23,989 nt of DNA from a virus. Under the pieces are notes generated by a model. That model made no database searches. It was not told where the DNA came from and saw only the letters and a list, made by a program, of their open reading frames with translations. The stretch is from the IMG/VR virus record IMGVR_UViG_3300042987_003546, positions 1 to 23,989 of that record. One strand, written 5' to 3'. Position numbers and translations under genes: made by a program. This document shows positions 3 to 23,989 of this stretch, piece by piece; the stretch's first letter is position 1; each line of letters opens with the position of its first letter.

Positions 3-3000
3 CGCGGATTCGAAAAACAGCAGTCGCCAAAGGATTTCTACGATCTGGTGGCGTCGAATGTGCCGTTCGGGGACTTCACAGTCAGCGACCCTGAATACAA
101 CAAGTTCAACGCCAACATCCACGATTACTTCTTCCTGAAGTCTGCCGATCTGGTCAAACCGGGCGGCATGGTCATGCACGTCACATCCACGGGAACGATG
201 GATAAGGTGGATGACAAGATTCGTCAGGAACTGGCGAAAACGTGTGATTTCGTGGCGGCGGTCCGTTTCCCAGAGGGAGCCCATCAGGAGAACGCCGGAA
301 CGCAGGTCGTGACCGACATGATTCTGTTGCGAAAGCGGCATCCGGGGGAACAGCCTGTCACGCTGGACTACACGCCACCGGAAGCGATGCCACCATGGTC
401 ATCGGGTGGTGAGACTCCGATCAGTAATGAGGAACACAATGCGCGGCTGAATAAAATCAGGAACGGTGAAGAGGTCGAACCGATTCCAGACAAAAAAGGC
501 TTCACCGGCATGACGACGGATTCACTCGGTCGTGTCTACCATTGGGTGGATGGCAAGCGAGTTCCGGCCCCTGACTGGTTGGGAACGAAGGAAGTACCAG
601 ACCCAGCGGGCGGCGAGCCGATTACCGTCAATGCGTACTTTGCGGACCATCCAGAACAGATCCTGGGTACGCTCGACCGTACCGGGACCATGTACGGCGG
701 CAAGCAAAAGAACGTCAGCAAGACCGATGACTACGACGAACGACTGCAGGCGGCGATTGATCGATTGCCAGCGGGCGTATTCACCACGGACGCGACCGAT
801 AAGCCTGGGGCATCGCCAGAACGACGGGAAGCCACGCATGGTGTGAAAAACGGCGGTTTCGTGATTCATGACGGGAAACTCTTCCGACGTTCGGGAGGGG
901 CGGAAATCGAACAGACCGTCAACGAGAAGGATTTCGCACGAATCGAGGGGCAACTAGGCATTCGTGACGCAATGCAAGCGGTGATCGATGCCGAACTCGC
1001 GGGAGAATCGCCGGACGAAGCACGCGCGAAGCTGAACAGCGTCTACGATGCGTACGTGAAGAAATACGGCCCGTTGTCGAATAAGGAAAACAAGAAAGTC
1101 ATCGCCAACGATCCAGACGCGGTACGGTTGCTGGCATTGGAGTCCTACAACGCTGCCACCAAGACCGTCACCAAAGCCGATATGTTTTCCAAGGCTACCG
1201 TACGGTCGGGCAAACAGGCGGACCATGCCAACGGGATCGAGGAAGGGGTTGGCGTGTGTCTGAACGAGACGGGCAGCATCGACCCTGTACGCATCGCCGA
1301 ACTCACCGGAAAGCCATTGATCGAGGTCGAGGGCGAGCTACGACACGGGGGCATGGCGTTCGAAGATCCAGCAACAGGCTGGCAACCAGCGTCCCTGTAC
1401 CTGTCGGGCAACGTACGGCAAAAGCTCGTATTGGCACGAGCGGCGGCAGCTGTCGATCCGAAGTATCAGCACAATGTTGACGCATTGGAAAACCATCAGC
1501 CAGAGGACATCGATTACCAGAATATCGACGTGCGACTTGGGGCCGGGTGGGTTCCATCCAGTGATATGCAGGCGTTTGTTACTCAGATCACGGGCACGCG
1601 CGACGGGCGAATCGCAGTCAATTACGTTCCGCAAACGGGCCAATGGATCGTCGAGGATACGCGGTCAGGAAACGGGCAAACCGCAGCCATGGAAGAGTTT
1701 GGCACGGAAGACGTTCCGTTCGCGGACCTGTTGCAACGCGTTCTCAATTCGAAGTCGCTGGTTGTGGAATACAACGCACTGACACCGGACGGAAACGACG
1801 TCAAGAAGATCGATCAGGACGCGACACGGGCGGCGGAAGACAAAGCCAAGCAGCTCAAGGCGAAGTTCCAGGAATGGATCTGGGAAGATGACGAACGCCG
1901 TGATCGGTTGGCACGGTTCTACAACGACAACTTCAACAACATCATCCCGGTCAAATACGACGGTAGCCATTTGCAATTCCCGGGCATGAATCCCGATTTC
2001 CAGATGCGTGACATCCAGAAGAATTTCGTCTGGCAGGTCATCACAACCGGGCGGGGTCTGGCGGCACACGAAGTGGGAACGGGCAAGACCGCCAGCATGA
2101 TCGCATCGGCAATGGAACTTCGCCGCTTGGGACTGGCCAAAAAGCCATGTATCGCCTGTATGAAGGCAAATATCGATCAGATCACGATGGAGGCCCAAAA
2201 GCTCTACCCGAACGCGAGAATCCTGTCCACGGCGGACAATTTCAGCGCCAAGCAGCGGAAGGAGACGATCTCCCGAATGTCCACGGGTGACTACGATCTC
2301 GTCATCATGACGCACGACCACATGAACATGCTGGGGATGCGTCCGCAGGTCGTGCAGGATTACATCCAGAGTCAACTGAACGAATTGCAGGTGGCCAAGA
2401 AAGCGGCATGGAAAGCGGACCCAGACAAGAACAATCGGATCGTTAAGGCACTGGAAAAAGCCCAGCAGAAACTGGAAACACGACTGGAAAAGGCGATCAA
2501 GGAAGCCGAAAAGGATGATGCGGTACACTTCGAGGAAACGGGCATCGATCAACTGTTCGTGGACGAAGCTCATGCCTACAAGAATCTGCCGGTCTACAGC
2601 ACGGGCGAGCGTGTGAAGGGCATCCCGCCAGCCAGTTCAGCATCAGACCGCGCCACGAACATGCTGATGCGGGCTCAATGGCTGATGAAGCACAACGGCG
2701 GGCGTGGTGTCGTCTTCGCCACGGGAACGCCTGTCTCAAACACGATGGTGGAACTGTACAACATCCAGCGGTATTTGCAGCCGGATGAGTTGAAGTCTCG
2801 CGGTCTGGACACGTTTGACGCCTGGGCGTCCGCGTTTGGCGACCGACAGACCGAAACCGAAGTCACCGCGACCGGCGATTACGATCAGGTCACACGGTTC
2901 AACAAGTTCGTCAATGTTCCCGAACTGATGAACATGGCCAGTCTGACAATGGACGTTGAGCGTGCGGACAGCATGAGGAAGCCGGACGGAAGCCCCGTCA

Positions 3001-5228
3001 TCATTCGACCGAAGCGGCATGACAGCATGGTTGTCACTCCGTTGAACGAGATGACCGAAAAGATGATGGCGGACCTGAAGGCACGCGCCATGGCGTGCAA
3101 GGGCAAGCGACCAGAGAAGGGAGCCGACAATATGGCCGTCATCTGTGCGGACGGGCGTAAGGGTTCGGTGGATATGCGAATGCTGTACGCGGACGCTCCC
3201 GACGATCCGAATTCCAAGTTGAATCAATGCGTCCAGAACGTCCTGAAGCTGCACAAGGAACGACCGGGCGTCACTCAGTGCATTTTCAGCAACGTCGGGG
3301 TGAATCCGTCAACCAAGACCGGATTCCACGTTTACGGCGACATCATTGAAAAGCTCGTGGCAGGCGGCATCCCACGGGAGAAAATCGCGGACTTCTCCAA
3401 ACTGGATGACGAAAAGCGTCACGATGCAGAAATGGGGATGCGCAATGGCGATATCCTGGTGGGGATTGGATCGACAGAACGTCTCGGAACAGGCGTCAAC
3501 GTCCAGCAGAAACTGGCAGCGTTGCATCACCTGGACGTGCCGTGGAAGCCGTCCGAGATCGAGCAGCGCGACGGGCGTGGATGGCGGCATGGCAATTTGA
3601 ATGATCCGACCAAGACCATGCCGAATCCGAAGTTTGACGCCAGCCGACCGGAAGGGCCGGGCAATAAAAAGGAAATCATCGATCCGAGTCAGCAGCAAGT
3701 GTCCATCTATCGATATGTATCGGAGGGGTCACTCGATCAATTCATGTGGCAGACAGTCGGGGCCAAGGCGGCATTCATCAACCAGACCGTCAACGCCAAG
3801 GATCGGAAAACTCGATCGATCAGCGACGATGACACCGAGACGCTGACGCCGGAGCAGTTCATGGCCGTGGCCAGCGGCAATCCGAACATCTTGAAAAAGA
3901 TCAACCTGCAATCCGACATCCGAGAATTGAAGGTCGGTCACGAGCAGCACCGTAAAGACCAGATCAAACTGAAGGACAAGATCAAGGAACACGAAGAGAC
4001 CGTGGTTCCGAAAACCGAAGGGATCGCAGCACGCCACGCGACAGACGCGGCACATTTCGCGAAACATGCGGACGACGAGTTTTCCATCAAGCTCGGGGAT
4101 ACGGTCCACACGAAGCGCAAGGACGCGGAAGAAGAGTTTGAAAAGAAACTCGCAGAGAGGACGTATGGATACTCGGGCGAAATGAAGGAACCGGTTGGCG
4201 AGTACAAAGGTTTCAAGGTTTACATGCCACAGGGCGGCAAGTACATGGAAATGCCCGATGGACAAATGGAACACGCACCAGTTGTGTTCGAAGGTCCAAG
4301 CGGGGCACTCTATCCGGCCCGTGGTTCATTGCGGTCCCTCGAAGCGGCCATTCGCGGACTTCCGAAGCATGCTGAAAAGAAAGCTCAACTGGCGGAACAG
4401 GCACGGCGTGACCTGGAAACGATGCGTGGACGCGTTGGCAAGGAATACCATCGCGCGGCCGAACTGGCGGCGAAACAGGCGGAACTGAAAGCTCTCGACG
4501 AAGAGTTGAAGGGAACTGAGACGGAATCGTTTGGGGCCGCACACGTCGCGGAACCAGAAGTGACCGGACCGAAGCGGACCAAGTTCAAGCCAGTCACTAC
4601 GAAGTGGATGTCCGATGCCGGGTCGCCAGATGAAATGACCGAATCCCTGCACCATGCCGGGGTGTATTCGAATCGGTCCGTTGCCATGAAAGTGCCGGAT
4701 GCACTCAAGAAAAACCTGTTGGAACGACATCCGTATCACGCCAAGGTGGCAGAGGCACAAACAGAACCGTCCGAACACGTCAAACGCGTCCAGAAACTGA
4801 TGGCAAGCCCGGCCCAAGAGCAGCCGATGGAGTTCGTGGCAGACCGCACAACACGGACCACGAAAGGATGGGGACGGCATCAGGAAACAATCGACAACAA
4901 TCACGCCATCTTCCAGGGGCCGGACGGAAAATACACAGCACTGGACGGCGAGTACGTCAGCACGTTCCAGCATTTGTACCCCAATGTGACGTTCCACGCT
5001 CCCGTTGATAACAAGCATCCTGTGATCGTCAAGAACGGGGCAGACACGATTGGCGTGTTGCCTCAGTTGGACATTCCGCAGGAAGACATGGTGAATCACG
5101 TACGCATCGTCAACGCCAAGCATGGCCCAGATGACGCTGATCGGTATTCGATGGCTCACGCTCCCGACCTGAATGAACGCATTGCAAGGGCAATCGCGCA
5201 GGCACTGTCAAAGAAAGGAACCTGTTGA
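3..5228 (+). CDS. DNA N6-adenine methyltransferase-SNF2 helicase (DarB-like), 5' end outside window
   Basis: The reading frame is open from base 3, so the gene starts upstream; the GTG at 48 lies inside the methyltransferase domain and is not a real start. 1741 codons are present. Seen in order: methyltransferase motif IV as NVPFG (57-71) followed by the IHDYFF segment; a family-typical linker (YFADHPEQILGTL at about 640); a superfamily 2/SNF2 helicase with Walker A GTGKT (2076-2090), DEAH box (2562-2573), an ATGTPVSN motif (about 2720-2745) and motif VI QRDGRGWRHG (3564-3593); a charged coiled coil (about 4360-4520); and a C-terminal extension of about 230 residues. This architecture is known from large phage and plasmid proteins, including P1 DarB, which is packaged in the head and protects injected DNA from restriction. 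Expected role: modify or protect DNA at entry. Family call is firm; virion packaging is inference. Confidence 0.88.
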   Translation, partial: RGFEKQQSPKDFYDLVASNVPFGDFTVSDPEYNKFNANIHDYFFLKSADLVKPGGMVMHVTSTGTMDKVDDKIRQELAKTCDFVAAVRFPEGAHQENAGTQVVTDMILLRKRHPGEQPVTLDYTPPEAMPPWSSGGETPISNEEHNARLNKIRNGEEVEPIPDKKGFTGMTTDSLGRVYHWVDGKRVPAPDWLGTKEVPDPAGGEPITVNAYFADHPEQILGTLDRTGTMYGGKQKNVSKTDDYDERLQAAIDRLPAGVFTTDATDKPGASPERREATHGVKNGGFVIHDGKLFRRSGGAEIEQTVNEKDFARIEGQLGIRDAMQAVIDAELAGESPDEARAKLNSVYDAYVKKYGPLSNKENKKVIANDPDAVRLLALESYNAATKTVTKADMFSKATVRSGKQADHANGIEEGVGVCLNETGSIDPVRIAELTGKPLIEVEGELRHGGMAFEDPATGWQPASLYLSGNVRQKLVLARAAAAVDPKYQHNVDALENHQPEDIDYQNIDVRLGAGWVPSSDMQAFVTQITGTRDGRIAVNYVPQTGQWIVEDTRSGNGQTAAMEEFGTEDVPFADLLQRVLNSKSLVVEYNALTPDGNDVKKIDQDATRAAEDKAKQLKAKFQEWIWEDDERRDRLARFYNDNFNNIIPVKYDGSHLQFPGMNPDFQMRDIQKNFVWQVITTGRGLAAHEVGTGKTASMIASAMELRRLGLAKKPCIACMKANIDQITMEAQKLYPNARILSTADNFSAKQRKETISRMSTGDYDLVIMTHDHMNMLGMRPQVVQDYIQSQLNELQVAKKAAWKADPDKNNRIVKALEKAQQKLETRLEKAIKEAEKDDAVHFEETGIDQLFVDEAHAYKNLPVYSTGERVKGIPPASSASDRATNMLMRAQWLMKHNGGRGVVFATGTPVSNTMVELYNIQRYLQPDELKSRGLDTFDAWASAFGDRQTETEVTATGDYDQVTRFNKFVNVPELMNMASLTMDVERADSMRKPDGSPVIIRPKRHDSMVVTPLNEMTEKMMADLKARAMACKGKRPEKGADNMAVICADGRKGSVDMRMLYADAPDDPNSKLNQCVQNVLKLHKERPGVTQCIFSNVGVNPSTKTGFHVYGDIIEKLVAGGIPREKIADFSKLDDEKRHDAEMGMRNGDILVGIGSTERLGTGVNVQQKLAALHHLDVPWKPSEIEQRDGRGWRHGNLNDPTKTMPNPKFDASRPEGPGNKKEIIDPSQQQVSIYRYVSEGSLDQFMWQTVGAKAAFINQTVNAKDRKTRSISDDDTETLTPEQFMAVASGNPNILKKINLQSDIRELKVGHEQHRKDQIKLKDKIKEHEETVVPKTEGIAARHATDAAHFAKHADDEFSIKLGDTVHTKRKDAEEEFEKKLAERTYGYSGEMKEPVGEYKGFKVYMPQGGKYMEMPDGQMEHAPVVFEGPSGALYPARGSLRSLEAAIRGLPKHAEKKAQLAEQARRDLETMRGRVGKEYHRAAELAAKQAELKALDEELKGTETESFGAAHVAEPEVTGPKRTKFKPVTTKWMSDAGSPDEMTESLHHAGVYSNRSVAMKVPDALKKNLLERHPYHAKVAEAQTEPSEHVKRVQKLMASPAQEQPMEFVADRTTRTTKGWGRHQETIDNNHAIFQGPDGKYTALDGEYVSTFQHLYPNVTFHAPVDNKHPVIVKNGADTIGVLPQLDIPQEDMVNHVRIVNAKHGPDDADRYSMAHAPDLNERIARAIAQALSKKGTC

Positions 5229-5229
5229 A

Positions 5230-6789
5230 ATGAATCTCCTGAAAGTCGCGGCACTGGTGGCCGCTGGAGTGTCGCGATATGCCAATCCCGTCCCACGGTC
5301 CCGATACGGGGCCGGATTCGACGAATCCAAGCATCCACGCGGGAACAAAAACAACCCTGGGCAGTTTGCCAAGAAGGGCGAAGCATCGGGCAAGGCGAGC
5401 GAAGCGACCAAATCGGCCCCGCACAGCGCCGGAACGCATGCTGCGGCAACGCACGCGAATAACTACGCGCAGCAAGGGGATTCGGAACAAGCGGCCAAGT
5501 TCCACGATCAGGCGGCAAAAGCCCATCAGCAACTGGCCGAACAGAATCCACAGCATGCGGCGGCACACAATGCAGCGGCAAAGGCTCACACGGACGCGGC
5601 GGCATTGCATCGACAGCCAGTGGAACAACTCGTGGAAGAACAGCAAAAGGAAGATACGACGTCCCCACCACCGGGCGGCTACAACCCGGACCCTGCACAG
5701 GGCAAGGCGGCACGCGTCGGGGTGCCTGGGGATGTAGTCCCTCCCCCACCGAAAAAGATTCCACGCTTGAACAATCTGACACCGGAAGAACGAGCCGTCG
5801 AAAGCAAGTTCGCGGAAATGTTTGAGAAGGATCCTGACGGACTGGCAGACCAATTCATTGCAGGGATGGCGAACCGTAGCATCGGTGACGGGCCGAACAT
5901 TTTCGCCACGGACGAATCGAAAATGTTGTTCCCCGAATGGAAGGGAACCAAGGTTCCAGTGATGGAAAACGGCCAGCCGAAGATTGGCAAGGATGGCAAG
6001 CCCGAAATGGAACTCAGCCCAGAAACCAAGGCGTTTCGGTCGAAGTACAACACGGCGATGCACCAGACGGCCAACGCTATCGCCAAGCGGGCGTTCCTAC
6101 GCTACCTGGATACCGAAGTGGCGAAGTCACCGAATAAGAGCATTCTCGTGACGGCGGGCGGCGTTGCAGCCGGTAAGGGATATGCGATTGATAACGTCAA
6201 CGACGTGAAATCGATCTCCAACAAGGCGTCCGCGACCTGGGATTCGGCTGGGGAGCAGAACTCGACCGAATTGGGATGGTTGGCGTCCGAGTGCAAGAAA
6301 CGCGGCATCAAGATGACTGCCGTGTTCGTGCATTCGAACCCCACGGAGACATGGGAGAATCCAGACCGGGGCGTGATCGAGCGAGCCGGGAAAAAGGGCC
6401 GCATGGTCGATGCAAGGCCGTTTGCCGATTCGTACACGCATGGGGCTCGAAACTTCCACAATTTCCAGCAAGCCCATCAGCACGACGATTCGATTCAAAC
6501 GATGGTTCTCGACAACACTCGGCCACCGATTCCAGACCTGGATGAGAACGGCGTTCAAAAGCTCGATAAGAAGGGCAAGCCAGCGATGAAGGCGGATATT
6601 CAGTATCTGCCACAAATCCCGCAGGAAATGCTGTCGATGAGTCCAGAACACCTGTACGCACGTTGTATGGATGCTCTGGCGAAAGCACCGGCCCCGGAAG
6701 CGGTGAAGGAAGGCGGCAGCGCGGGGGCACGCATCTGGGGGCCACCGCAAGGGGCGGCACAAAAACCCGGACAAAATCCCGGAAAATGA
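5230..6789 (+). CDS. Putative virion-associated protein with zeta-toxin-like P-loop domain
   Basis: Start chosen at ATG 5230, one base after the preceding stop, with AAGGAA upstream; an in-frame ATG at 5173 lies inside the previous gene and lacks support. 519 aa. Residues 1-50 contain SRYANP, a second Arg-Tyr pair and HPRG...NNPGQFAKKG, a basic motif seen in many phage head proteins. Residues 50-140 are an Ala/His/Gln-rich helical stretch with repeated A-x2-H spacing. Residues about 280-480 resemble the zeta toxin/AAA kinase fold: a beta strand and P-loop GGVAAGKG (310-317), then an Arg-rich ERAGKKGR segment before a conserved DARPF. The P-loop has Gly where Ser or Thr normally follows Lys, so kinase activity is uncertain. 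Its position after the methyltransferase-helicase suggests co-packaging or co-delivery (inference). Not firmly assignable to one enzyme. Confidence 0.65.
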   Translation: MNLLKVAALVAAGVSRYANPVPRSRYGAGFDESKHPRGNKNNPGQFAKKGEASGKASEATKSAPHSAGTHAAATHANNYAQQGDSEQAAKFHDQAAKAHQQLAEQNPQHAAAHNAAAKAHTDAAALHRQPVEQLVEEQQKEDTTSPPPGGYNPDPAQGKAARVGVPGDVVPPPPKKIPRLNNLTPEERAVESKFAEMFEKDPDGLADQFIAGMANRSIGDGPNIFATDESKMLFPEWKGTKVPVMENGQPKIGKDGKPEMELSPETKAFRSKYNTAMHQTANAIAKRAFLRYLDTEVAKSPNKSILVTAGGVAAGKGYAIDNVNDVKSISNKASATWDSAGEQNSTELGWLASECKKRGIKMTAVFVHSNPTETWENPDRGVIERAGKKGRMVDARPFADSYTHGARNFHNFQQAHQHDDSIQTMVLDNTRPPIPDLDENGVQKLDKKGKPAMKADIQYLPQIPQEMLSMSPEHLYARCMDALAKAPAPEAVKEGGSAGARIWGPPQGAAQKPGQNPGK

Positions 6790-6870: not shown

Positions 6871-7080
6871 ATGAATAACACGCAGCAAACGCCATTCGTC
6901 CCAAAGTGGAAGTTCCCCGAAGCACAAGCATTGGGTGAAGCGTGCTTGGGTAACCTGACCGAGAATATGACGGACCCCGATGCACTCGAAGCAAAACGCG
7001 ATGCACGGGATCTTGCGAATGCAGTACCGGCAGAAGCGAAGCCAGCAGCGCCAGCCGTAGCGGGAACGCCGAACCCATGA
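6871..7080 (+). CDS. Hypothetical protein, 69 aa
   Basis: Start chosen at ATG 6871 with a weak purine-rich GAGAGA six to ten bases upstream; a longer in-frame version from 6808 has no better site. The protein begins with a polar segment, has an acidic middle (NMTDPDALEAKRDARDL) and ends in an Ala/Pro-rich tail. No family recognised. It is the last plus-strand gene before the terminator at 7139, so it is probably the distal cistron of the methyltransferase/zeta-like unit. Confidence 0.55.
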   Translation: MNNTQQTPFVPKWKFPEAQALGEACLGNLTENMTDPDALEAKRDARDLANAVPAEAKPAAPAVAGTPNP

Positions 7081-7138
7081 AAGATGGCGAGCATTGCGGA
7101 GAGGTATGACACCATCACGCAGCACACACTTCGCCAGA

Positions 7139-7165
7139 AAGCCCCGGACTAAACCGGGGCTTTTT
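7139..7165. terminator. Bidirectional intrinsic terminator between convergent units
   Basis: Perfect 9-bp stem AAGCCCCGG / CCGGGGCTT (7139-7147 with 7154-7162) around a six-base loop. The plus strand continues into five T residues; the minus strand has a shorter T3 tail. It lies between the plus-strand gene ending at 7080 and the minus-strand gene ending at 7175, exactly where a shared terminator is expected. Confidence 0.88.
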
Positions 7166-7174
7166 CGTTGAGTG

Positions 7175-7579
7175 TCAGTCGCCTTCACCGTTCAGAATCT
7201 GGTCAGCAGCAAGCCGCAATTCTTGAACATCACGGTCTGTGTGAGAAATGTCAACATGCACACCAGCCTTTGCGTGCCAATAGTTGACGGTTTCAATCGC
7301 GTGGCGAATACAGGCAAACCGCAAGTCGCGATAGTATTTGCCCCATTGATCGAACGGCATTCCATCGATTGTGACGGAGATTGATTCCCCGCGAATGATC
7401 GACCGCGCCTGAGAGATTGCACGCAACAATTTCAGATAGGCAGTATTAGCGGCGCTCAAGCCTTGCACAGTCAACTTGTGTGTCGCTCGCGATTTATACG
7501 CCAAGTCCTGCATCGCACAGTCGGCTTGATGGTCCCTAATTCGTTGATTGTCCAATGCAACGGCCAATGATTTCTTCAT
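7175..7579 (-). CDS. Hypothetical protein, 134 aa, last gene of the minus-strand island
   Basis: Starts at ATG 7579, overlapping the stop of the upstream gene as ATGA (7576-7579), so translation is probably coupled. Predicted mostly helical, with charged N- and C-terminal segments (KSLAVALDNQRIRDHQ; DRDVQELRLAADQI) and a central GMPFDQWGKYYRDLRF segment. No signal peptide or membrane segment. Family not recognised. Its stop lies just before the shared terminator at 7139. Confidence 0.68.
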   Translation of the reverse strand: MKKSLAVALDNQRIRDHQADCAMQDLAYKSRATHKLTVQGLSAANTAYLKLLRAISQARSIIRGESISVTIDGMPFDQWGKYYRDLRFACIRHAIETVNYWHAKAGVHVDISHTDRDVQELRLAADQILNGEGD

Positions 7580-7842
7580 GACGACACTTCCTCAATCCAA
7601 GCCTTCACGGCTTCCTGATGTTCAACGGAGGGCCGGTCAACACGATCCAGCCAACGACGTACGGTGTGCGGCGACACGTCCAGATGCTGTGCCAACGCGG
7701 TCTGGCTGATGACACCACGTTTCCAGTGGTTATCGATCAGCTTTTGCAGCCGGAGCAGCGTCCGAGACCATTGGCCGGAATCAGGGTTGCGACGCTTCCC
7801 TTTGGGCCAGTGGCCACGCTCAACTTTGGGCTTTCGTTTCAT
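7576..7842 (-). CDS. Small helix-turn-helix DNA-binding protein
   Basis: 88 aa from ATG 7842, which overlaps the upstream stop as ATGA; an upstream in-frame start at 7932 would overlap the preceding gene by about 90 bases and is less likely. The N-terminus is strongly basic (KRKPKVERGHWPKGKRR). Residues about 48-75 form a helix-turn-helix with a recognition helix of the type ALAQHLDVSPHTVRRWL, followed by VDRPS. This fits a Cro/CI or MerR-like small regulator binding phage operators. Operator-like sites lie at 8941-8957 and 9363-9398 in the same unit, but which site it binds is inference. Confidence 0.72.
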   Translation of the reverse strand: MKRKPKVERGHWPKGKRRNPDSGQWSRTLLRLQKLIDNHWKRGVISQTALAQHLDVSPHTVRRWLDRVDRPSVEHQEAVKAWIEEVSS

Positions 7843-8003
7843 TCCATCTTCGCTTTCGCATGCCGGTACGCGATGGCCAAGAATGCTTTCGTCACCGCGA
7901 AGTAGAAGGTTCGCCAATCCTCGGCGGACCATTCAACGGAGCCAGCGACGCGCCAAACCATGTCGGCAGTCTTGGGGTCAATATCTTCAATGGGCTTCGG
8001 CAT
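7839..8003 (-). CDS. Hypothetical small protein, 54 aa
   Basis: Start chosen at ATG 8003 because GAGGTG lies about five bases upstream on the minus strand and only 17 bases overlap the preceding gene; the longer form from 8117 would overlap by 130 bases and lacks such a site. The protein has a short acidic N-terminus (PKPIEDIDPKTAD) and an aromatic middle (VEWSAEDWRTFYFAVTKAF). Family not recognised. It overlaps the HTH gene by ATGA. Confidence 0.6.
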   Translation of the reverse strand: MPKPIEDIDPKTADMVWRVAGSVEWSAEDWRTFYFAVTKAFLAIAYRHAKAKME

Positions 8004-8421
8004 CGGGCACCTCACTGAACGCAAACATCTTGAGTTGGTCTTTGAACAGGTTTGCTTTGGCAAACTCAACGGCGTTTTCAGTCGAGGGCATGATTCCGAT
8101 GCAATTCGCGAACGCATTCACAATTGTCAGTGGGTTGTTCAGGTAAAACGACACGCCAACCAGCTTCTGCGTCTTATAGGGATTGCGGTATTCCCGACTG
8201 GTCGTGTAATCGCCGTTTCCACGGTCTTTCGTCGGGGCTCGCATAAATCGCGTTGTCTGATCTGCGAGCCCAAGGAACATGAGCGGTTCGGTGCGAAGCG
8301 TCCACGGGGTCACATTGTCATCAAAAAACACCGCAACGAACCCGTCGGACGGAAGAAGTTGACGGATTCGATAGGTGTCGATTTCCCAATATGTGTAGCC
8401 ATCGTCTGCGTCTTCACTCAT
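7987..8421 (-). CDS. Hypothetical protein, 144 aa
   Basis: Starts at ATG 8421, overlapping the upstream gene by eight bases. An acidic N-terminus (MSEDADDGYTYWEID) is followed by several predicted strands (FVAVFFDDN; LMFLGLAD) and a mixed C-terminal half. Soluble, no signal peptide, no enzyme motif I can name. Unusually rich in aromatic residues for its size. Context (a phage island of short coupled orphans with its own promoter) makes a host-interaction or anti-defence role possible, but nothing in the sequence proves it. Confidence 0.68.
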   Translation of the reverse strand: MSEDADDGYTYWEIDTYRIRQLLPSDGFVAVFFDDNVTPWTLRTEPLMFLGLADQTTRFMRAPTKDRGNGDYTTSREYRNPYKTQKLVGVSFYLNNPLTIVNAFANCIGIMPSTENAVEFAKANLFKDQLKMFAFSEVPDAEAH

Positions 8422-8572
8422 AGGTCACCCCAGCGACAGCACGGCATTGGATGTTGATGTACTGCACGAGATCCCGCACGCATTCCGGGTTGGATGCGTC
8501 AAACTCGGGATCGTCGATGATGCTCACCAAAGTTACCAGCGTGCCGATTGCGTCAGTCGTGTCGATAGCCAT
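8414..8572 (-). CDS. Hypothetical protein, 52 aa, with duplicated leader
   Basis: Two adjacent ATGs exist (8575 and 8572). The one at 8572 is aligned with the start of the 8644-8856 gene in a shared 37-base leader and keeps the same eight-base spacing from AAGGGG, so it is preferred. A longer GTG start at 8647 would read through the hairpin at 8594-8616. The protein is acidic (IIDDPEFDASNPE) with a hydrophobic N-terminal third. Family not recognised. Confidence 0.6.
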   Translation of the reverse strand: MAIDTTDAIGTLVTLVSIIDDPEFDASNPECVRDLVQYINIQCRAVAGVTYE

Positions 8573-8606
8573 CATCGTATCCCCTTGAAAGTTGCCAGCC
8601 GTGGTT
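8570..8606 (-). repeat. Duplicated translation leader, copy 1
   Basis: 37 bases identical to 8854-8890 except one base next to the start codon. It covers the start codon, the AAGGGG ribosome site and about 20 bases further upstream, and precedes the 52-aa gene. Confidence 0.9.
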
Positions 8607-8616
8607 AGCGGCTGGC
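8594..8616 (-). other. Hairpin between two island genes
   Basis: Perfect 8-bp stem GCCAGCCG / CGGCTGGC with a seven-base loop, after the stop of the 70-aa gene and overlapping the far end of leader copy 1. There is no T run on the minus strand, so it is a weak terminator at best; it may limit read-through or mRNA decay. The second leader copy does not have the inverted partner. Confidence 0.6.
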
Positions 8617-8643
8617 GTTGGTAAAAACCCGAGGCCTTTCGTG

Positions 8644-8856
8644 TCACAGTGGAAAGCGAGCTTTCGCAAACTTCATATCAGCCTCAGAAACGGTATCGTC
8701 AAGACCATCGCTTGACAGAGTATCCTGAATGAATGACTTCAAGTTTGCGAAGGCCTGCTCACCAGTCATCGCCTTGTCAACAAAAACGGTGTCAACGGCG
8801 TTTGAAATGCCTCGCTCAATTGCGTCCTGTCGCTGCTGACGTGTTCCTCGTTTCAT
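8644..8856 (-). CDS. Hypothetical protein, 70 aa
   Basis: Starts at ATG 8856 with AAGGGG eight bases upstream inside leader copy 2. Basic N-terminus (MKRGTRQQRQ), acidic middle (SSDGLDDTVSEADMKFAK), predicted helical. Family not recognised. Its leader is shared with the next gene downstream, although the two proteins themselves are not alike. Confidence 0.62.
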   Translation of the reverse strand: MKRGTRQQRQDAIERGISNAVDTVFVDKAMTGEQAFANLKSFIQDTLSSDGLDDTVSEADMKFAKARFPL

Positions 8857-9534: not shown

Positions 9535-9553
9535 GGGGTAGCCACCCCAGTGA

Positions 9554-9576
9554 GGTATTGGAACAACCAAGCCGCG
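9554..9576 (+). repeat. Duplicated mini-hairpin element, copy A
   Basis: 23 bases identical to 12223-12245. It contains TTGG-AACAA-CCAA (9558-9570), a four-pair hairpin with a five-base loop, and ends with the 5' arm of the following terminator. Confidence 0.9.
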
Positions 9577-9602
9577 CACCTATCCGGGTTCGCGGCTTTT
9601 TT
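9569..9602 (+). terminator. Intrinsic terminator/attenuator before the head genes
   Basis: Stem AAGCCGCG (9569-9576) / CGCGGCTT (9591-9598), with an inner ACC/GGT pairing, then a T6 run (9597-9602). Only 20 bases separate it from the next start codon, so transcripts coming from upstream would have to pass it. Confidence 0.8.
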
Positions 9603-9621
9603 CGTTTGCGGAGTTCGCCAA

Positions 9622-10500
9622 ATGACACTGGTCTTCAACGGTCTCGACATGAGCGGGACGACAGCACACCGACCGACGAACGCCGAAATTGGCCAGCCCT
9701 ACTTCGATACCACTCTCAACACGCTGTTGGTATGGAACGGTTCGGCATGGCAAGACGCTGCTGACTCGACAGCTCCTGCAATCAATGGGGCGGCGGGAAC
9801 CACGGGCACAGGAACTACGGCGGGAACCGCTGGTGGTGCCGTGTCGCTGACAGCCGGGGCGGGCGGTGCCAAAACCGGCACGGGCGCGGCGGCTGGCGGG
9901 GCCGGTGGAGCAATCACCGAAACGGCTGGGAACGGTGGTAACACCGCATCGGCTGGCAGTGATGCTGGCGGGGCGGGCGGTGGTGTCACGCTGACTGCTG
10001 GAACCGGTGGCAACGCCACGGCAGGAACCGGAAACGGTGGGGCCGGTGGCAGTATCAACCTTGTGCCAGGGGCAGGCGGCACGTCCGCAGGCGGCACAGC
10101 GGGTGCCAATGGCGAAGTCAAGGTGAACGGCGTGGCAGGTCTGATGCAGGCCGACTTCGTTTATGGCGAAGCGACCCCGTTGGATGCGGCCTTTTTCATC
10201 GCCTGCCGAAACTATCGCGTCAAGTCGATCATCGTGCGACCGCTGGTCGTTGGGTCGGATGGTGGGGCTGTGACAGCCCAGATTCGCAAAGCTCCCAGCG
10301 GGACGGCGATGGCCTCGGGCACGGTCCTGCACTCGGGAAGTGCCGATCTGAAGGGCACGATCAACACGAATCAAAGTCTCACGCTCAGTTCCACGTCATC
10401 GGATCTCGACATCGCGTCAGGTGATGCCATCGGGATTGACGTGACAGGCGTCACAACTGCTGCTCGCGGGGTTATCTCCGTTCTGCTCAATCCACGGTAA
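9622..10500 (+). CDS. Gly-rich collagen/roll-like virion protein (putative head fibre)
   Basis: Start chosen at ATG 9622 with GGAG eight bases upstream; the longer GTG version from 9550 would translate the terminator hairpin. 292 aa. The N-terminus carries a segment typical of phage fibre and structural proteins (GQPYFDTTLNTLLVWNGSAW, about 27-46). Residues about 55-170 are Gly/Ala/Thr-rich, with GGAGG motifs recurring every 15-30 residues alternating with VSLTAG-, VTLTAG- and INLVPG-type strands, which suggests a repeating beta-roll or collagen-like shaft. The C-terminal 120 residues look like a compact beta domain, possibly a jelly roll. Its position directly before the scaffold and capsid genes suggests a head fibre or decoration protein rather than a tail fibre (inference). 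Confidence 0.65.
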   Translation: MTLVFNGLDMSGTTAHRPTNAEIGQPYFDTTLNTLLVWNGSAWQDAADSTAPAINGAAGTTGTGTTAGTAGGAVSLTAGAGGAKTGTGAAAGGAGGAITETAGNGGNTASAGSDAGGAGGGVTLTAGTGGNATAGTGNGGAGGSINLVPGAGGTSAGGTAGANGEVKVNGVAGLMQADFVYGEATPLDAAFFIACRNYRVKSIIVRPLVVGSDGGAVTAQIRKAPSGTAMASGTVLHSGSADLKGTINTNQSLTLSSTSSDLDIASGDAIGIDVTGVTTAARGVISVLLNPR

Positions 10501-12876: not shown

Positions 12877-13929
12877 ATGGCTGCAGCAGCTACGTTCCCC
12901 AGTGGTAATAATACATTCGTGAAGGATCACGAGTCGTCTGGCAAGTTGACGATCAACTTCAGCCGCAATCCCAAGAAGTTCGCGCTGAACCGGTACATCC
13001 AGATCATCCCCGTCAAGAAGATGGCAGGGTACTACCTGGAAATGACCGTGGAAGAGGCCGGTCGCTTGTTGAACAGCGATGGGGCCGAATTCGACTGGCC
13101 CGATGGTGCCGATGCTCCAGCCGGGGCGGACGGTACTGAATCGTTCGTGTTCAAGGAATTCCGTACCAAGCGGAAAGCCTACGCGGTTCGCCTCGGCGAA
13201 TTAGCCGTGGAACAGGCTGGCTGGAACATCAGCGAAGCCCACCTGAACATCAAGGCCCAGCAAGCGATGACGAGTCGCACGCAGGACGTTGTGACCGCGT
13301 TGACGACCAGCGGGAACTACGCCAATTCGCACGTAAGTGCGGCGAGTGCCATTTCGGGCAACTCGGGCACGCTGGCTGCGTCTACCACAGCACGCCAGGA
13401 CATCAAGCGAGCCTTCAACACGATGGCACAGCAGATCATCGTTGACACCCTCGGCGCGGTGACAACCGACGATCTGCGTATCGTGATGGGACCAACGGAT
13501 GCGGCCCTGATTGCCCAGTGTCAAGAAATCGTTGACCACATCAAGGGGTCGCCGGATGCCTTGGCACAGGTCAAGGGCGAGATTCCAGGCACGAACACCC
13601 GATTCGGTCTGCCGGACAAACTGTACGGCTTCAAGATCGAAATCGAAGACGCGGTGAAGGTGACTTCCCGCAAGGGTGCGACAGCCGTAAAGACGTTCGT
13701 CTGGCCAAGCGGTTCTCTCGTCATGTGTTCGCAGGTCGGGGGACTGGTCGGTCAGGCCGACACGCCAAACTTCTCGACGGCATGTCTGTTCGTCTATGAA
13801 AAGGACGAAATGGCGGTTGAAAGCCAGCATGACGCATGGAACCGACGGCACGACACTCGCGTCGTGGACAATCGCCAAGCCAAGGTGGTTGCTCCTGCCA
13901 GCGGGTTCCTGTTGACCGGAATTGTCTGA
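12877..13929 (+). CDS. Major capsid protein (HK97-fold type)
   Basis: 350 aa. ATG 12877, with AAAGGG about 12 bases upstream. The N-terminus is short and lacks a long charged delta domain, consistent with a separate scaffold gene. The middle has the pattern of a capsid P domain: repeated helix DVVTALTTSGNY, a Ser/Ala/Gly-rich stretch, a helix DIKRAFNTMAQQII, then TTDDLRIVMGPTDAALI. The C-terminal third (GLPDKLYGFKIEIEDAV; GSLVMCSQVGG) is the usual strand-rich end with a conserved native-state region. Size, position after the scaffold and cement genes and before the connector all fit. The gene is flanked on both sides by unusually strong RNA hairpins. Confidence 0.85.
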   Translation: MAAAATFPSGNNTFVKDHESSGKLTINFSRNPKKFALNRYIQIIPVKKMAGYYLEMTVEEAGRLLNSDGAEFDWPDGADAPAGADGTESFVFKEFRTKRKAYAVRLGELAVEQAGWNISEAHLNIKAQQAMTSRTQDVVTALTTSGNYANSHVSAASAISGNSGTLAASTTARQDIKRAFNTMAQQIIVDTLGAVTTDDLRIVMGPTDAALIAQCQEIVDHIKGSPDALAQVKGEIPGTNTRFGLPDKLYGFKIEIEDAVKVTSRKGATAVKTFVWPSGSLVMCSQVGGLVGQADTPNFSTACLFVYEKDEMAVESQHDAWNRRHDTRVVDNRQAKVVAPASGFLLTGIV

Positions 13930-20418: not shown

Positions 20419-22131
20419 ATGATTCAATTCAAGGGCGTTGATCTGCTCCTGGAAGATCCCACGGGCAGAGCAGCCGCATACGTGCAACGGTATCTGGGAA
20501 TGCCGGAATCCCTGATCAATGCCCCCGCACGGACGATCGACAGCAAATCGCGAGTACAGCGCCCCCAGTGGCCAGAGGGGCCGAAGCTGCGACCGAATCA
20601 GCTTTACATGCCATCTGGTGCGACACGGTGGGGGCAGTTCATCGGTCTGGCTACGACAGCCCAAAAGAACGCGATTCTCGCGGCCATGTCGTCACGAAGC
20701 TCCACAGGAACCCTGACGATCAGCCTGGAGGATTCGCCCAATGTTGCGGTTGCGTCCTGCACAAACGCAGACGGGACGTTTAACCTGCAAGGGGCCATCT
20801 CGGTCACGATGTACTTGTTGCCACCGCAGCCAGTCAGTCAGGCCGCATCGTCAGCAGAAAATGACTTGTGGATTCTGCCGATGGTGGACGAACGGTTCTG
20901 GTGGCAGACCGCAATGTTTGTGTCAGTGGCGGAAACATGGGCCGATCTGCTCGACGAGTTCAACACGTCACTGGGGATCAGCCTGACACGCGATGCGTCG
21001 GCACCGATTGACAGCGACTACGGCATTCCTGACGCCTGTTTTTTCCGAAACGGGGCCATCAATACGGCAGCGGCGGTCGATCTGTACTGTTGGTCCACGA
21101 ATCAGCGACTGGTCCCAAAAGACATCAGCGCCGGAACGTGGATGCTCAGGTCATCCAGGCCCGATGCTAGTTCGTCATCGTCGAGTAGTTCGAGCAGTTC
21201 ATCGTCAAGTTCATCCAGCAGCGCGGCGACAGTGGATGCGGACTGCCTGTACACGGGCCAGCGTGATGCACAGTTGCTGACACCGAATTCCGGTTCAATG
21301 TCGGCCGGCGGGGAATGCACGTCCACTCACAGCGGTGACGTTCCGAAAACGATCCAGTTCCACTTCACGAACGATTCGGCCACGGAACTGCTGGTACACA
21401 TCGCCGGGACTGATCCAGACTATGCCGACGGCGGGATTCTCGACGTAATGTGTCCGGCAACGTCAACAGGCTCAAATGACAGCGATTTGGAAGCGATGGC
21501 CGACAAATGGGCCAACGACTTCTGGACGTGGTCCAAGTGGCGTTTCTCGTGGTCTTTCAATCGTCTGCTCAACTGGCACATGATTGGCTACGAAGATTAC
21601 GTGCTGATCGATCTGTCTCGGCACAAACGGGGCTACAACGCTCGCACGGCGGTCAAGGCACTGCCCCCAACCGGCTGGGGAATGGACGCTGTACCGTTGC
21701 AACTGTCCACAGGCGGTAATACCTGTGCTGGCAGCGGAAACGGGTCAACAACGTCCCCATGTGGTTGCTGTGACTGCAAGGATTGTCTCCCACCAGACAA
21801 ATCCACGATCGGCAGCGGAACGTGTAGCACCTGTGCCAACGGGGCTGCGGGGTCATATACGTTCAATCCTGGGACTTTCACGGCATACCCGGCATTGGGC
21901 GGATTACAGACTGTAACGCACGTCTCAGGATGCGTTTGGCAGTCGGGACTGATCGCAGTCACGGCAGCAGCATGGGCAGCGAGTCGATACTACTACGTGA
22001 ACGATTACGTGTTGCACGACAGTGGCAAACAATACAAGTGCGTCACGGCGGGAACGTCCGGATCAACGGGCCCCACGGGAACCGGGTCCGGGATCACTGA
22101 TGGGTCTGTCACATGGGACTACTCACCATGA
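20419..22131 (+). CDS. Multi-domain adhesin-like tail protein with Ser18 linker and C-terminal carbohydrate-binding-like domain
   Basis: 570 aa; ATG 20419 with GAGG about eight bases upstream. Parts: residues 1-140, a beta-rich domain (RWGQFIGLATTAQKNAILAAM; TLTISLEDS) resembling tail-tip components; 150-250, a second globular part; 251-268, eighteen serines in a row; 275-450, a Trp/Asp-rich domain (WANDFWTWSKWRFSWSF); 450-490, a Cys-rich stretch (CGCCDCKDC and CSTC); and about 520-570, a domain of the type WAASRYYYVNDYVLHDSGK...YKCVTAGTSGS...TDGSVTWDYSP, known from tail fibre and carbohydrate-binding modules of the chitin-binding kind. Suggested role: host surface binding. It overlaps the next gene by ATGA. 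Confidence 0.65.
   Translation: MIQFKGVDLLLEDPTGRAAAYVQRYLGMPESLINAPARTIDSKSRVQRPQWPEGPKLRPNQLYMPSGATRWGQFIGLATTAQKNAILAAMSSRSSTGTLTISLEDSPNVAVASCTNADGTFNLQGAISVTMYLLPPQPVSQAASSAENDLWILPMVDERFWWQTAMFVSVAETWADLLDEFNTSLGISLTRDASAPIDSDYGIPDACFFRNGAINTAAAVDLYCWSTNQRLVPKDISAGTWMLRSSRPDASSSSSSSSSSSSSSSSSSAATVDADCLYTGQRDAQLLTPNSGSMSAGGECTSTHSGDVPKTIQFHFTNDSATELLVHIAGTDPDYADGGILDVMCPATSTGSNDSDLEAMADKWANDFWTWSKWRFSWSFNRLLNWHMIGYEDYVLIDLSRHKRGYNARTAVKALPPTGWGMDAVPLQLSTGGNTCAGSGNGSTTSPCGCCDCKDCLPPDKSTIGSGTCSTCANGAAGSYTFNPGTFTAYPALGGLQTVTHVSGCVWQSGLIAVTAAAWAASRYYYVNDYVLHDSGKQYKCVTAGTSGSTGPTGTGSGITDGSVTWDYSP
21169..21222 (+). repeat. Poly-serine tract, 18 codons
   Basis: Eighteen consecutive Ser codons (5 AGT, 5 TCG, 4 TCA, 3 AGC, 1 TCC), acting as a flexible linker between two globular parts of the adhesin-like protein. 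Confidence 0.95.
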
Positions 22132-22862
22132 CGGCCCCGAACCTGTACCGCTGGGTGTTCACTCAGAACGGGGCGAACTCGACAGCGGAAATGCAGTTCG
22201 TTCACGGCACTGACGTTGTCAATTCGTCGGTCCACCCGATGAAGTACGGGGCGGATGATGAATTCCCCTGGAACTGCAAATGTCAGTCGCGGATGCAACT
22301 GATGGAACCCGAACGGCTGACTTCGCGCGAACACGTCAATTGTGCGATCTGTGTGAAGCCATCAGAAGGCGTCAAGGCCGCGCTTGACTGTGAATCCGCA
22401 GAAGCGACTGCACTGGTCACTAAGCGAGCCACTCAAGGCATCCTGTTGACGTGGATTACTCCCCCATACTGGGAAACGGCATCGCCGGGAGACGTGATTG
22501 GGGCCATTGGGCCATGTGGAGCGGCGTTCAGTTACACGTATCGTGGGGCAGGAACTGGAGCGTTCAATCCATCGGATATTCACAGTGACTGGGCAGCAGT
22601 GGGGCTACCGTCATTTGATGAGAGGGCGGACGGGTGCGGCGTATGTGGTCGTATAGCCGTTTACCCACCAACAGGCTGGCTACCGGGGTCCGCGTCAATC
22701 AATGGGTATTCGGTTCCGTTTGCGTCATGGTCCGATGGATGGGGCCAGTGCGGTACTACGGGCAATCCGTTCCTGATTGACGTGTTTGGCGGGATCCTGT
22801 TTCGTGTCTCGGGACCATCCAGCGGCTACAGGCTCAAGGGGGAGTGGTTTGATCTGCCATGA
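22128..22862 (+). CDS. Cys-rich tail-tip protein, paralogue 1
   Basis: 244 aa from ATG 22128 (ATGA overlap). The N-terminal 80 residues form a small module, FVHGTDVVN (24-32), P-x-K-Y and then C50-x-C52 and C72-x2-C75, which recurs in the next gene with identical Cys spacing. The rest (about 100-244) is Gly/Trp/Pro-rich and beta-like, with more Cys pairs (CGVC at about 166; WGQC). No signal peptide. Probably a tail-tip or receptor-binding component; the Cys pattern could bind zinc or iron (inference). Family not recognised. Confidence 0.6.
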   Translation: MTAPNLYRWVFTQNGANSTAEMQFVHGTDVVNSSVHPMKYGADDEFPWNCKCQSRMQLMEPERLTSREHVNCAICVKPSEGVKAALDCESAEATALVTKRATQGILLTWITPPYWETASPGDVIGAIGPCGAAFSYTYRGAGTGAFNPSDIHSDWAAVGLPSFDERADGCGVCGRIAVYPPTGWLPGSASINGYSVPFASWSDGWGQCGTTGNPFLIDVFGGILFRVSGPSSGYRLKGEWFDLP

Positions 22863-23443
22863 CAAACAACTACCGATACAGCTTGGATGAAAGCACTTCC
22901 CCACCGCAAATTGTTGTGGAGTTCGTCAGCGGTACGGACGTGATGAACATTGGATCACGTCCAGTCAAGTACGTGGCCAGCAAGTTCAACTCATGTCGGT
23001 GTGCGAGTAAGTTTTCTCTGGTCACAGGGGAAACGCTCCTGCCACCAGCGGACATCAGTTGCAACCTGTGCCTGGAACCGATTGCGGGTGACTCCAGTAG
23101 TTCATCGTCATCATCGTCGAGTAGCAGCAGTTCAAGTTCGTCGTCATCCAGCAGCAGTTCGTCGAGTTCGAGTTCGTCAAGCTCATCGTCGTCATCAAGT
23201 TCGTCATCGTCGAGCAGTTCCAGTTCCAGCAGCAGTTCCAGTTCGTCGAGTTCCAGTAGTTCGTCGTCGTCAAGCTCCAGCGGCTGTACGGGAACGTGCG
23301 GTCAGTTCACATGGACCAGTGGGGAGTGGGTCGAGGGAGATCCACCGTTTCCCTACTGTACCTGTACATGCTACGGGCCCGCGTTCATGGGGATGTTTGA
23401 AGGACAGACGGCATCAGGTTCGTGCCAGAGTACCCCACCATGA
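22859..23443 (+). CDS. Cys-rich tail-tip protein with 63-residue poly-Ser stalk, paralogue 2
   Basis: 194 aa from ATG 22859 (ATGA overlap). Residues 1-78 are a paralogue of the preceding N-terminal module: FVSGTDVMN (22-30), P-V-K-Y, C46-x-C48 and C68-x2-C71. Residues 79-141 are 63 serines without interruption, about a third of the protein. Residues 142-194 are a compact Cys-rich head (CTGTCGQF; YCTCTC; a final Cys near the end). The design, two small Cys-stabilised heads joined by a long hydrophilic stalk, fits an extended adhesin. The glycosyltransferase gene starts inside its stop codon. Confidence 0.65.
   Translation: MTNNYRYSLDESTSPPQIVVEFVSGTDVMNIGSRPVKYVASKFNSCRCASKFSLVTGETLLPPADISCNLCLEPIAGDSSSSSSSSSSSSSSSSSSSSSSSSSSSSSSSSSSSSSSSSSSSSSSSSSSSSSSSSSSSSSSSGCTGTCGQFTWTSGEWVEGDPPFPYCTCTCYGPAFMGMFEGQTASGSCQSTPP
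23093..23281 (+). repeat. Poly-serine tract, 63 codons
   Basis: 63 consecutive Ser codons: 19 TCG, 16 AGT, 11 TCA, 10 AGC, 7 TCC, no TCT. The DNA is degenerate, not a simple tandem repeat. Confidence 0.95.
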
Positions 23444-23989
23444 TTCCATGCCAATTCAAGGGCGGCGTTCATTCAGTCTCGGACTTCGGCAACGGGCCGA
23501 CAACGGTCTGGGACTGCTCCAAATTTCGGATCTGCACGGATCAGCCAATCGGCCTGAAGTTGCTCGACGGCACCCCAGCGGGGGCATGCGACGGGTGCAT
23601 GTTCCTTGAGGAACAGTTGGTACATCGGGAATCGTCATCGTCAGCGCAAAGTGGGGGGCTCACAGAAGCCCCCCCCGCAACGACGTTAGCCGACCCATTA
23701 CCGCTGGTCTCCTGCATTCTGCCGACGTACGCGCTCCCGATGCGTTTGAACGCTCTGAATGAGGCTGTCCAGTCGTTCCTGATGCAAGACTACGCGCATC
23801 GGGAACTGATCATCATCATCGATTCGCCGGGGCAAACGATCAAATACGATCACCCAATGGTCAAGGTGGTCAATTCCCCAGAACGGTTCCCGACGCTGGG
23901 GGACAAGCTCAATGCAGCCATCCGGCATGCCAGCGGTGAATTCATCTGCCGGTGGGATGACGACGATATCAGCCTGCCGTGGAGGATCA
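23440..23989 (+). CDS. Family 2 glycosyltransferase with Cys-rich N-terminal module, 3' end outside window
   Basis: Starts at ATG 23440, overlapping the previous stop (ATGA), and runs off the window after 183 codons. Residues 1-60 are a Cys module (C4, C26, C32, C50, C53). Residues about 60-87 are a linker containing ESSSS. From residue 88 a GT-A fold of family GT2 is clear: VSCILPTY (23707-23730), a helix ending SFLMQDY, the strand RELIIIID, and LNAAIRHASGEFICRWDDDD with the DXD metal/nucleotide-sugar site as DDDD (23956-23967). Acts presumably in the cytoplasm, transferring a sugar from a nucleotide donor. Target unknown: a virion protein such as the neighbouring Ser-rich adhesin, or a host glycan. 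GT2 call is firm. Confidence 0.82.
   Translation, partial: MIPCQFKGGVHSVSDFGNGPTTVWDCSKFRICTDQPIGLKLLDGTPAGACDGCMFLEEQLVHRESSSSAQSGGLTEAPPATTLADPLPLVSCILPTYALPMRLNALNEAVQSFLMQDYAHRELIIIIDSPGQTIKYDHPMVKVVNSPERFPTLGDKLNAAIRHASGEFICRWDDDDISLPWRI

Follow-up and report, generated by a model that had tools for sequence, protein, structure and literature searches.

The window, a 23,989-nucleotide stretch of viral DNA, ends in a candidate distal-tail cassette in which an unbroken run of 63 serines (Ser63) would tether small Cys-rich modules and a GT2-family glycosyltransferase would glycosylate tail proteins encoded on the same transcript, the serine tract being the obvious acceptor. We put the probability of this reading at about 45%. 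The phage may, on this reading, sugar-coat its own tail tip, and the chances that Ser63 itself is decorated by the neighbouring enzyme are roughly even. Comparison with relatives shows that the cassette starts in the C-terminal half of the hub gene and runs through Cys- and Ser-rich accessory proteins to glyco-enzymes, the GT2 being its exchangeable glycosyltransferase. The enzyme most probably works in the host cytoplasm on distal-tail proteins, and the result would be a lineage-specific glycan on the tip.

Tail operon and serine tract

The operon, on the plus strand, includes a gene (20419–22131) for a 570-residue tail or baseplate hub of the gp27/VgrG/Mu gp44 type with a Cys-rich C-terminal region. 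This assignment is based on an AF2 model built with 25 relatives, which aligned over residues 1–440 with many phage, T6SS and CIS hubs (VIA-align, Z 11–14; approximately 240–277 residues matched to many hub chains) and returned a tail protein as the top Foldseek match (E = 0.002). The predicted fold is that of the gp27, Mu gp44 and VgrG central hubs, to which the window protein adds a swapped Cys-rich C terminus and an 18-serine tract (residues 251–268; 21169–21222, plus strand) inside a low-confidence loop (pLDDT < 50 over residues 250–306). The hub is followed by protein B (22128–22862, plus strand; 244 residues, no Ser tract) and protein C (22859–23443, plus strand; 194 residues), which have an N-terminal Cys4 domain in common (32% identity over 78 residues, E = 2e-11). 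In B this domain precedes a different C-terminal domain; in C (residues 1–78) it is separated by Ser63 (residues 79–141; 23093–23281, plus strand) from a Cys-rich C-terminal module (residues 142–194), as in a polyserine linker. Given that Ser63 begins exactly at the border of the Cys4 domain, the tract sits where a linker would. Protein C would be a partner of B in which Ser63 acts as a long, hydrophilic and flexible spacer joining two small Cys-rich modules.

The earlier note had described this stretch as 63 serines without a break, and it is: not one residue interrupts the run. The codons are mixed (TCG 19, AGT 16, TCA 11, AGC 10, TCC 7 and TCT 0; 37 TCN and 26 AGY), with switches between the TCN and AGY sets at 31 of 62 steps, an order that looks random, and exact repeats reach 15 nt at most, compared with 14.8 in codon shuffles. 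Because codon order is random-like and repeat length is that of the shuffles, the tract is no fresh product of slippage; Tandem Repeats Finder (TRF) found short, weak arrays only. Assuming 5.8% serine, as in the other proteins of the window, a run of this kind would arise by chance with a probability of approximately 10^-78 per given site. Ser63 looks kept at the protein level, and its codon mixture points to selection for serine. On the minus strand of 23093–23281, one antisense frame is open and contains only Leu, Asp and Glu (LELDDDELLELDELE...), which probably just follows from the serine codons.

The remainder of protein C offers little to compare. Structure prediction gave no confident fold (pLDDT 36), family profile searches yielded no match above the cut-off, and matches to DDHD and SPX were discarded, being below the cut-off and on the low-complexity Ser tract. 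By eye, the N terminus (MTNNYRYSLDES...) has no obvious secretion signal. The description of C as tail-tip-like in the earlier note holds by way of the hub two genes upstream and not through any homology of C itself above the cut-off; a position at the tail tip would follow from this neighbour. Likewise, the ATGA overlap of C and the glycosyltransferase gene is real (ATG at 23440, TGA at 23441–23443), but the special tie that had been read into it fails: the same 4-nt overlap occurs at all three successive junctions from the hub through B and C to the glycosyltransferase. Such coupling is how this operon is built, and we ruled it out as a sign of a particular link between the last two genes.

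Three other window genes were seen in passing. A Gly/Ala/Thr-rich repeat protein (9550–10500), upstream of the capsid gene and possibly a head fibre, has a match in the closest relative (L003:5621–6574) only over residues 25–68 (77% identical). The ORF at 5173–6789, with no Pfam match, contains a P-loop-like stretch (VTAGGVAAGKGYAID) and reads like a zeta-toxin type kinase. A very large protein with SNF2/helicase motifs lies beside the structural genes (48–5228; 1,726 residues read, 5′ end outside the window).

The glycosyltransferase gene

The last gene (23440–23989, plus strand) runs beyond the contig end. It is linked to the structural genes by its overlap with C and its position behind B and the hub. 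The 183 residues read match Glycos_transf_2 (PF00535) over residues 91–180 (E = 3.8e-9; 37.1 bits against a curated cut-off of 23.3) and cover profile positions 1–93 of 168, with the acceptor half beyond the contig end; the DXD-like motif WDDDD (W172, DDDD 173–176) lies just before that end. The N-terminal Cys module (residues 1–62; C4, C26, C32, C50 and C53) and SSSS linker (residues 65–68) are present, which together with the profile match confirms the earlier description of a GT2 enzyme with a Cys module and a short Ser linker. The best PDB match was 9jma/PglI (E = 0.0015). A search of host genomes for the Cys module gave weak, unrelated matches only.

Small Cys modules ending in CxxC plus an aromatic residue recur in the genes behind the hub (hereafter, the slot) in several phages, with homology judged by eye only (window 23440–23660; L005:2665–3036; L082:2927–4843; L086:8901–10448; L096:10036–11484). 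They stand alone or are fused to glycosyltransferases or methyltransferases of differing families, and no library names them.

Cassette variation among related phages

Relatives were found with the major capsid protein (12877–13929, plus strand; phrog_1005, E = 9e-9) as the query, which recovered 51 viral and 7 genome loci (approximately 58 with related capsid proteins); scans of the viral contigs with the glycosyltransferase, protein C or the hub as single queries found no matches. Five of the seven genome loci (L074, L075, L077, L078 and L079) lie in Planctomycetota metagenome-assembled genomes (MAGs), counting Thermoguttaceae, which we take to belong to this phylum. The window phage, which is uncultured, probably infects Planctomycetota, and the hosts of its lineage are mostly of that phylum. 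Among annotated phages, the glycosyltransferase found weak GT2-domain matches only, and neither the capsid protein nor a 679-residue tail protein found a match. The slot genes behind the hub were read in approximately 26 lineages, and their enzymes were named using Pfam and NCBIfam.

Close comparisons show that this end of the operon is exchanged as a unit. Between the window and its closest relative (G001), the capsid protein is 76% identical and neighbouring genes are mostly 46–76% identical, whereas the hub is 23% identical and B, C and the glycosyltransferase have no match. Both phages are Ser-rich (in the hub and a fibre in G001), but a glycosyltransferase occupies the slot only in the window; the G001 operon continues into a Cys-module ORF, which is followed, ahead of the next gene set, by a terminator-like stem seen by eye that a simple terminator scan did not report. 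In the sister pair G051 and G052, flanking genes are 54–78% identical (one 43%), and the block from the C-terminal half of the hub to the next common gene is wholly replaced: G052 encodes a Ser-rich hub tail, a protein with a run of 20 serines, a GT25 and methyltransferases, and G051 neither Ser tracts nor glycosyltransferases. Ser fibres and glycosyltransferases were gained or lost here as one block, in a single cassette swap. That the hub tail and everything after it form a swapped, hypervariable distal-tail cassette is well supported by these sequence comparisons.

Across the survey, Ser-rich spans occur next to Cys modules, at interdomain positions or C-terminally (for example, 130 residues in the G001 hub). 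The slot sugar genes belong to many unrelated families (GT2, GT4, GT25, GT71-like, PLOD-GT, KdsB and NDP-sugar epimerase). Among Ser-rich lineages, the window has its GT2; G007/8/17 have an (SSGP)n protein followed by a Mannosyl_trans3 plus GT2 protein (GT71-like) and an FkbM methyltransferase; G047 has a GT25, a methyltransferase and an NDP-sugar epimerase; G052 has the GT25 with two methyltransferase-domain proteins; and G001 has no sugar gene in the slot. The slot of G003 carries a CMP-Kdo synthase above the cut-off (KdsB, NCBIfam NF003952, E = 3e-65), which on the reverse strand of L027 (approximately 6951–8776) adjoins a Cys-module protein lacking a family match and comes after four Ser-rich tail-region proteins; a weak GT2 match lies on the other strand. 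That of G048 carries a PLOD-type glycosyltransferase domain (PF25342, E = 4e-10; L094, reverse strand, 3162–3944), a family associated with collagen glycosylation, behind a protein with a 521-residue span that is 74% serine. A ‘DUF115/GT42-like’ label for a 354-residue protein of G003 and a 332-residue protein of G048 was set aside, as neither had a Pfam or NCBIfam match.

Sugar genes were thus present in the slots of 6 of 7 Ser-rich lineages and in 9 of 19 without Ser tracts (Fisher one-sided p = 0.09, with Ser threshold and slot calls chosen after data inspection, and only two independent pairs on well-supported branches of the capsid tree). The nine are G005, G012, G016, G020, G022, G023 (a GT9-like call just below the cut-off), G039 (epimerase-like by eye), G042, G044; neither feature was seen in G002, G006, G011, G015, G028, G031 (a weak methyltransferase match only), G035, G041, G051 and G055, some of them contig-limited. 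Outside this table stand the contig-limited G021, a borderline case for Ser, and G025, in which no sugar gene was recognised; the table replaces a count of 6/6 against 9/19 (p = 0.03) made before the G001 slot was found to end without a glycosyltransferase. Ser-richness requires 4–5 changes on the capsid tree and so is not a single inherited trait. G001, the p value and the Ser-free lineages with sugar genes count against the proposed glycosylation of the poly-Ser stalk.

Target of the glycosyltransferase

The proposal that the phage glycosylates its own poly-Ser stalk was overstated in the earlier note, yet it draws support from its place in the late tail operon behind the hub, the unrelated sugar genes behind Ser-rich tail proteins and the G051/G052 swap. 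Action on serine also fits the soluble-looking glycosyltransferases and the nucleotide-sugar genes of some Ser-rich relatives; G001 weakens the case for it, as do the many lineages that have glycosyltransferases but no Ser tracts. These last observations are what would be expected if Ser63 were a plain polyserine linker and the enzyme modified host surface glycan, for receptor masking or superinfection exclusion, the two being adjacent only through sharing a variable cassette. We regard this as a genuine, if tentative, possibility. In over a quarter of the depolymerases of Saccharophagus degradans, functional domains are set apart by polyserine repeats, which are simply called linkers there (PMC2386152). 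Protein C similarly has a long Ser run joining two modules, although it is no carbohydrate depolymerase and its gene belongs to a phage tail operon, adjoining that of a glycosyltransferase. PHROGs also classes similar phage glycosyltransferases, one GtrB-like, under host takeover. Yet the gene sits inside the tail operon, the slot glycosyltransferases have no convincing transmembrane segments, no flippase or gtrA-like gene was recognised beside them, and nucleotide-sugar and sugar-methyl genes accompany the Ser fibres in G003, G007/8/17 and G047.

A virion protein might instead be modified elsewhere, at the Cys modules, at Thr residues or on another tail or capsid protein. Glycosyltransferases are frequent in the slots of Ser-free relatives with Cys-rich hub-adjacent proteins, and mycobacteriophages of the Che8 type glycosylate their own capsid proteins using phage glycosyltransferases, proposed or shown, according to PMC11256854 (citing Freeman et al. 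2023). In both systems phage glycosyltransferases would act on the phage's own structural proteins; the targets reported there are capsid proteins, whereas the window group has enzymes of many families behind the tail hub, beside Ser/Cys fibres. No other hydroxyl acceptor of the operon is as abundant as Ser63, and we consider another site distinctly unlikely. Glucosylation of modified phage DNA bases, for which other phages offer a precedent (a review cited in PMC10955285), is very improbable: the gene lies in a tail operon, the ORFs read from this partial genome held no recognisable sign of hydroxymethylated bases, and slot glycosyltransferases span many families with relatives directed at protein or LPS, GT25 and PLOD among them. 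Low-complexity DNA close to a contig end could raise suspicion of an assembly or annotation artefact, to which we give almost no credence, as the tract is codon-diverse, its frame is open on both sides and independent contigs carry Ser-rich tracts in the corresponding position.

Glycosylation of the distal tail by the cassette's own enzyme, the reading we prefer, has a close counterpart in the serine-rich repeat adhesins of Gram-positive bacteria, which are primed by GtfA/GtfB (PMC6973325). Both have a long Ser-rich stalk and neighbouring glycosyltransferase genes that vary between strains. The window differs in having a GT2 instead of GtfA/GtfB, a pure Ser run instead of repeats and a phage tail-operon protein that is not anchored in a cell wall, with no accessory Sec seen; Pfam and NCBIfam searches gave no GtfA/GtfB match in the only downstream neighbour read, the GT2 at which the contig ends. 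The window system combines features of these known systems and is a demonstrated member of none.

A broader and somewhat unlikely extension is that the whole lineage bears mucin-like, Ser-rich tip stalks coated with glycan by swappable enzymes of the same cassette (GT2, GT25, GT71-like and PLOD-type glycosyltransferases, CMP-Kdo synthase, sugar epimerase and methyltransferases), so that the tip glycan is swapped together with the receptor-binding proteins. Should the cassette glycosylate its own tail tip, phages of mostly Planctomycetota, with no close match among the annotated phages searched, would possess a second layer of variation at the tip, one based on sugars, besides the sequence of the receptor-binding protein. 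Even if Ser63 is merely a spacer, the hub-end cassette is plainly a hotspot that trades glyco-enzymes of many families, frequently as fusions with a small Cys module.
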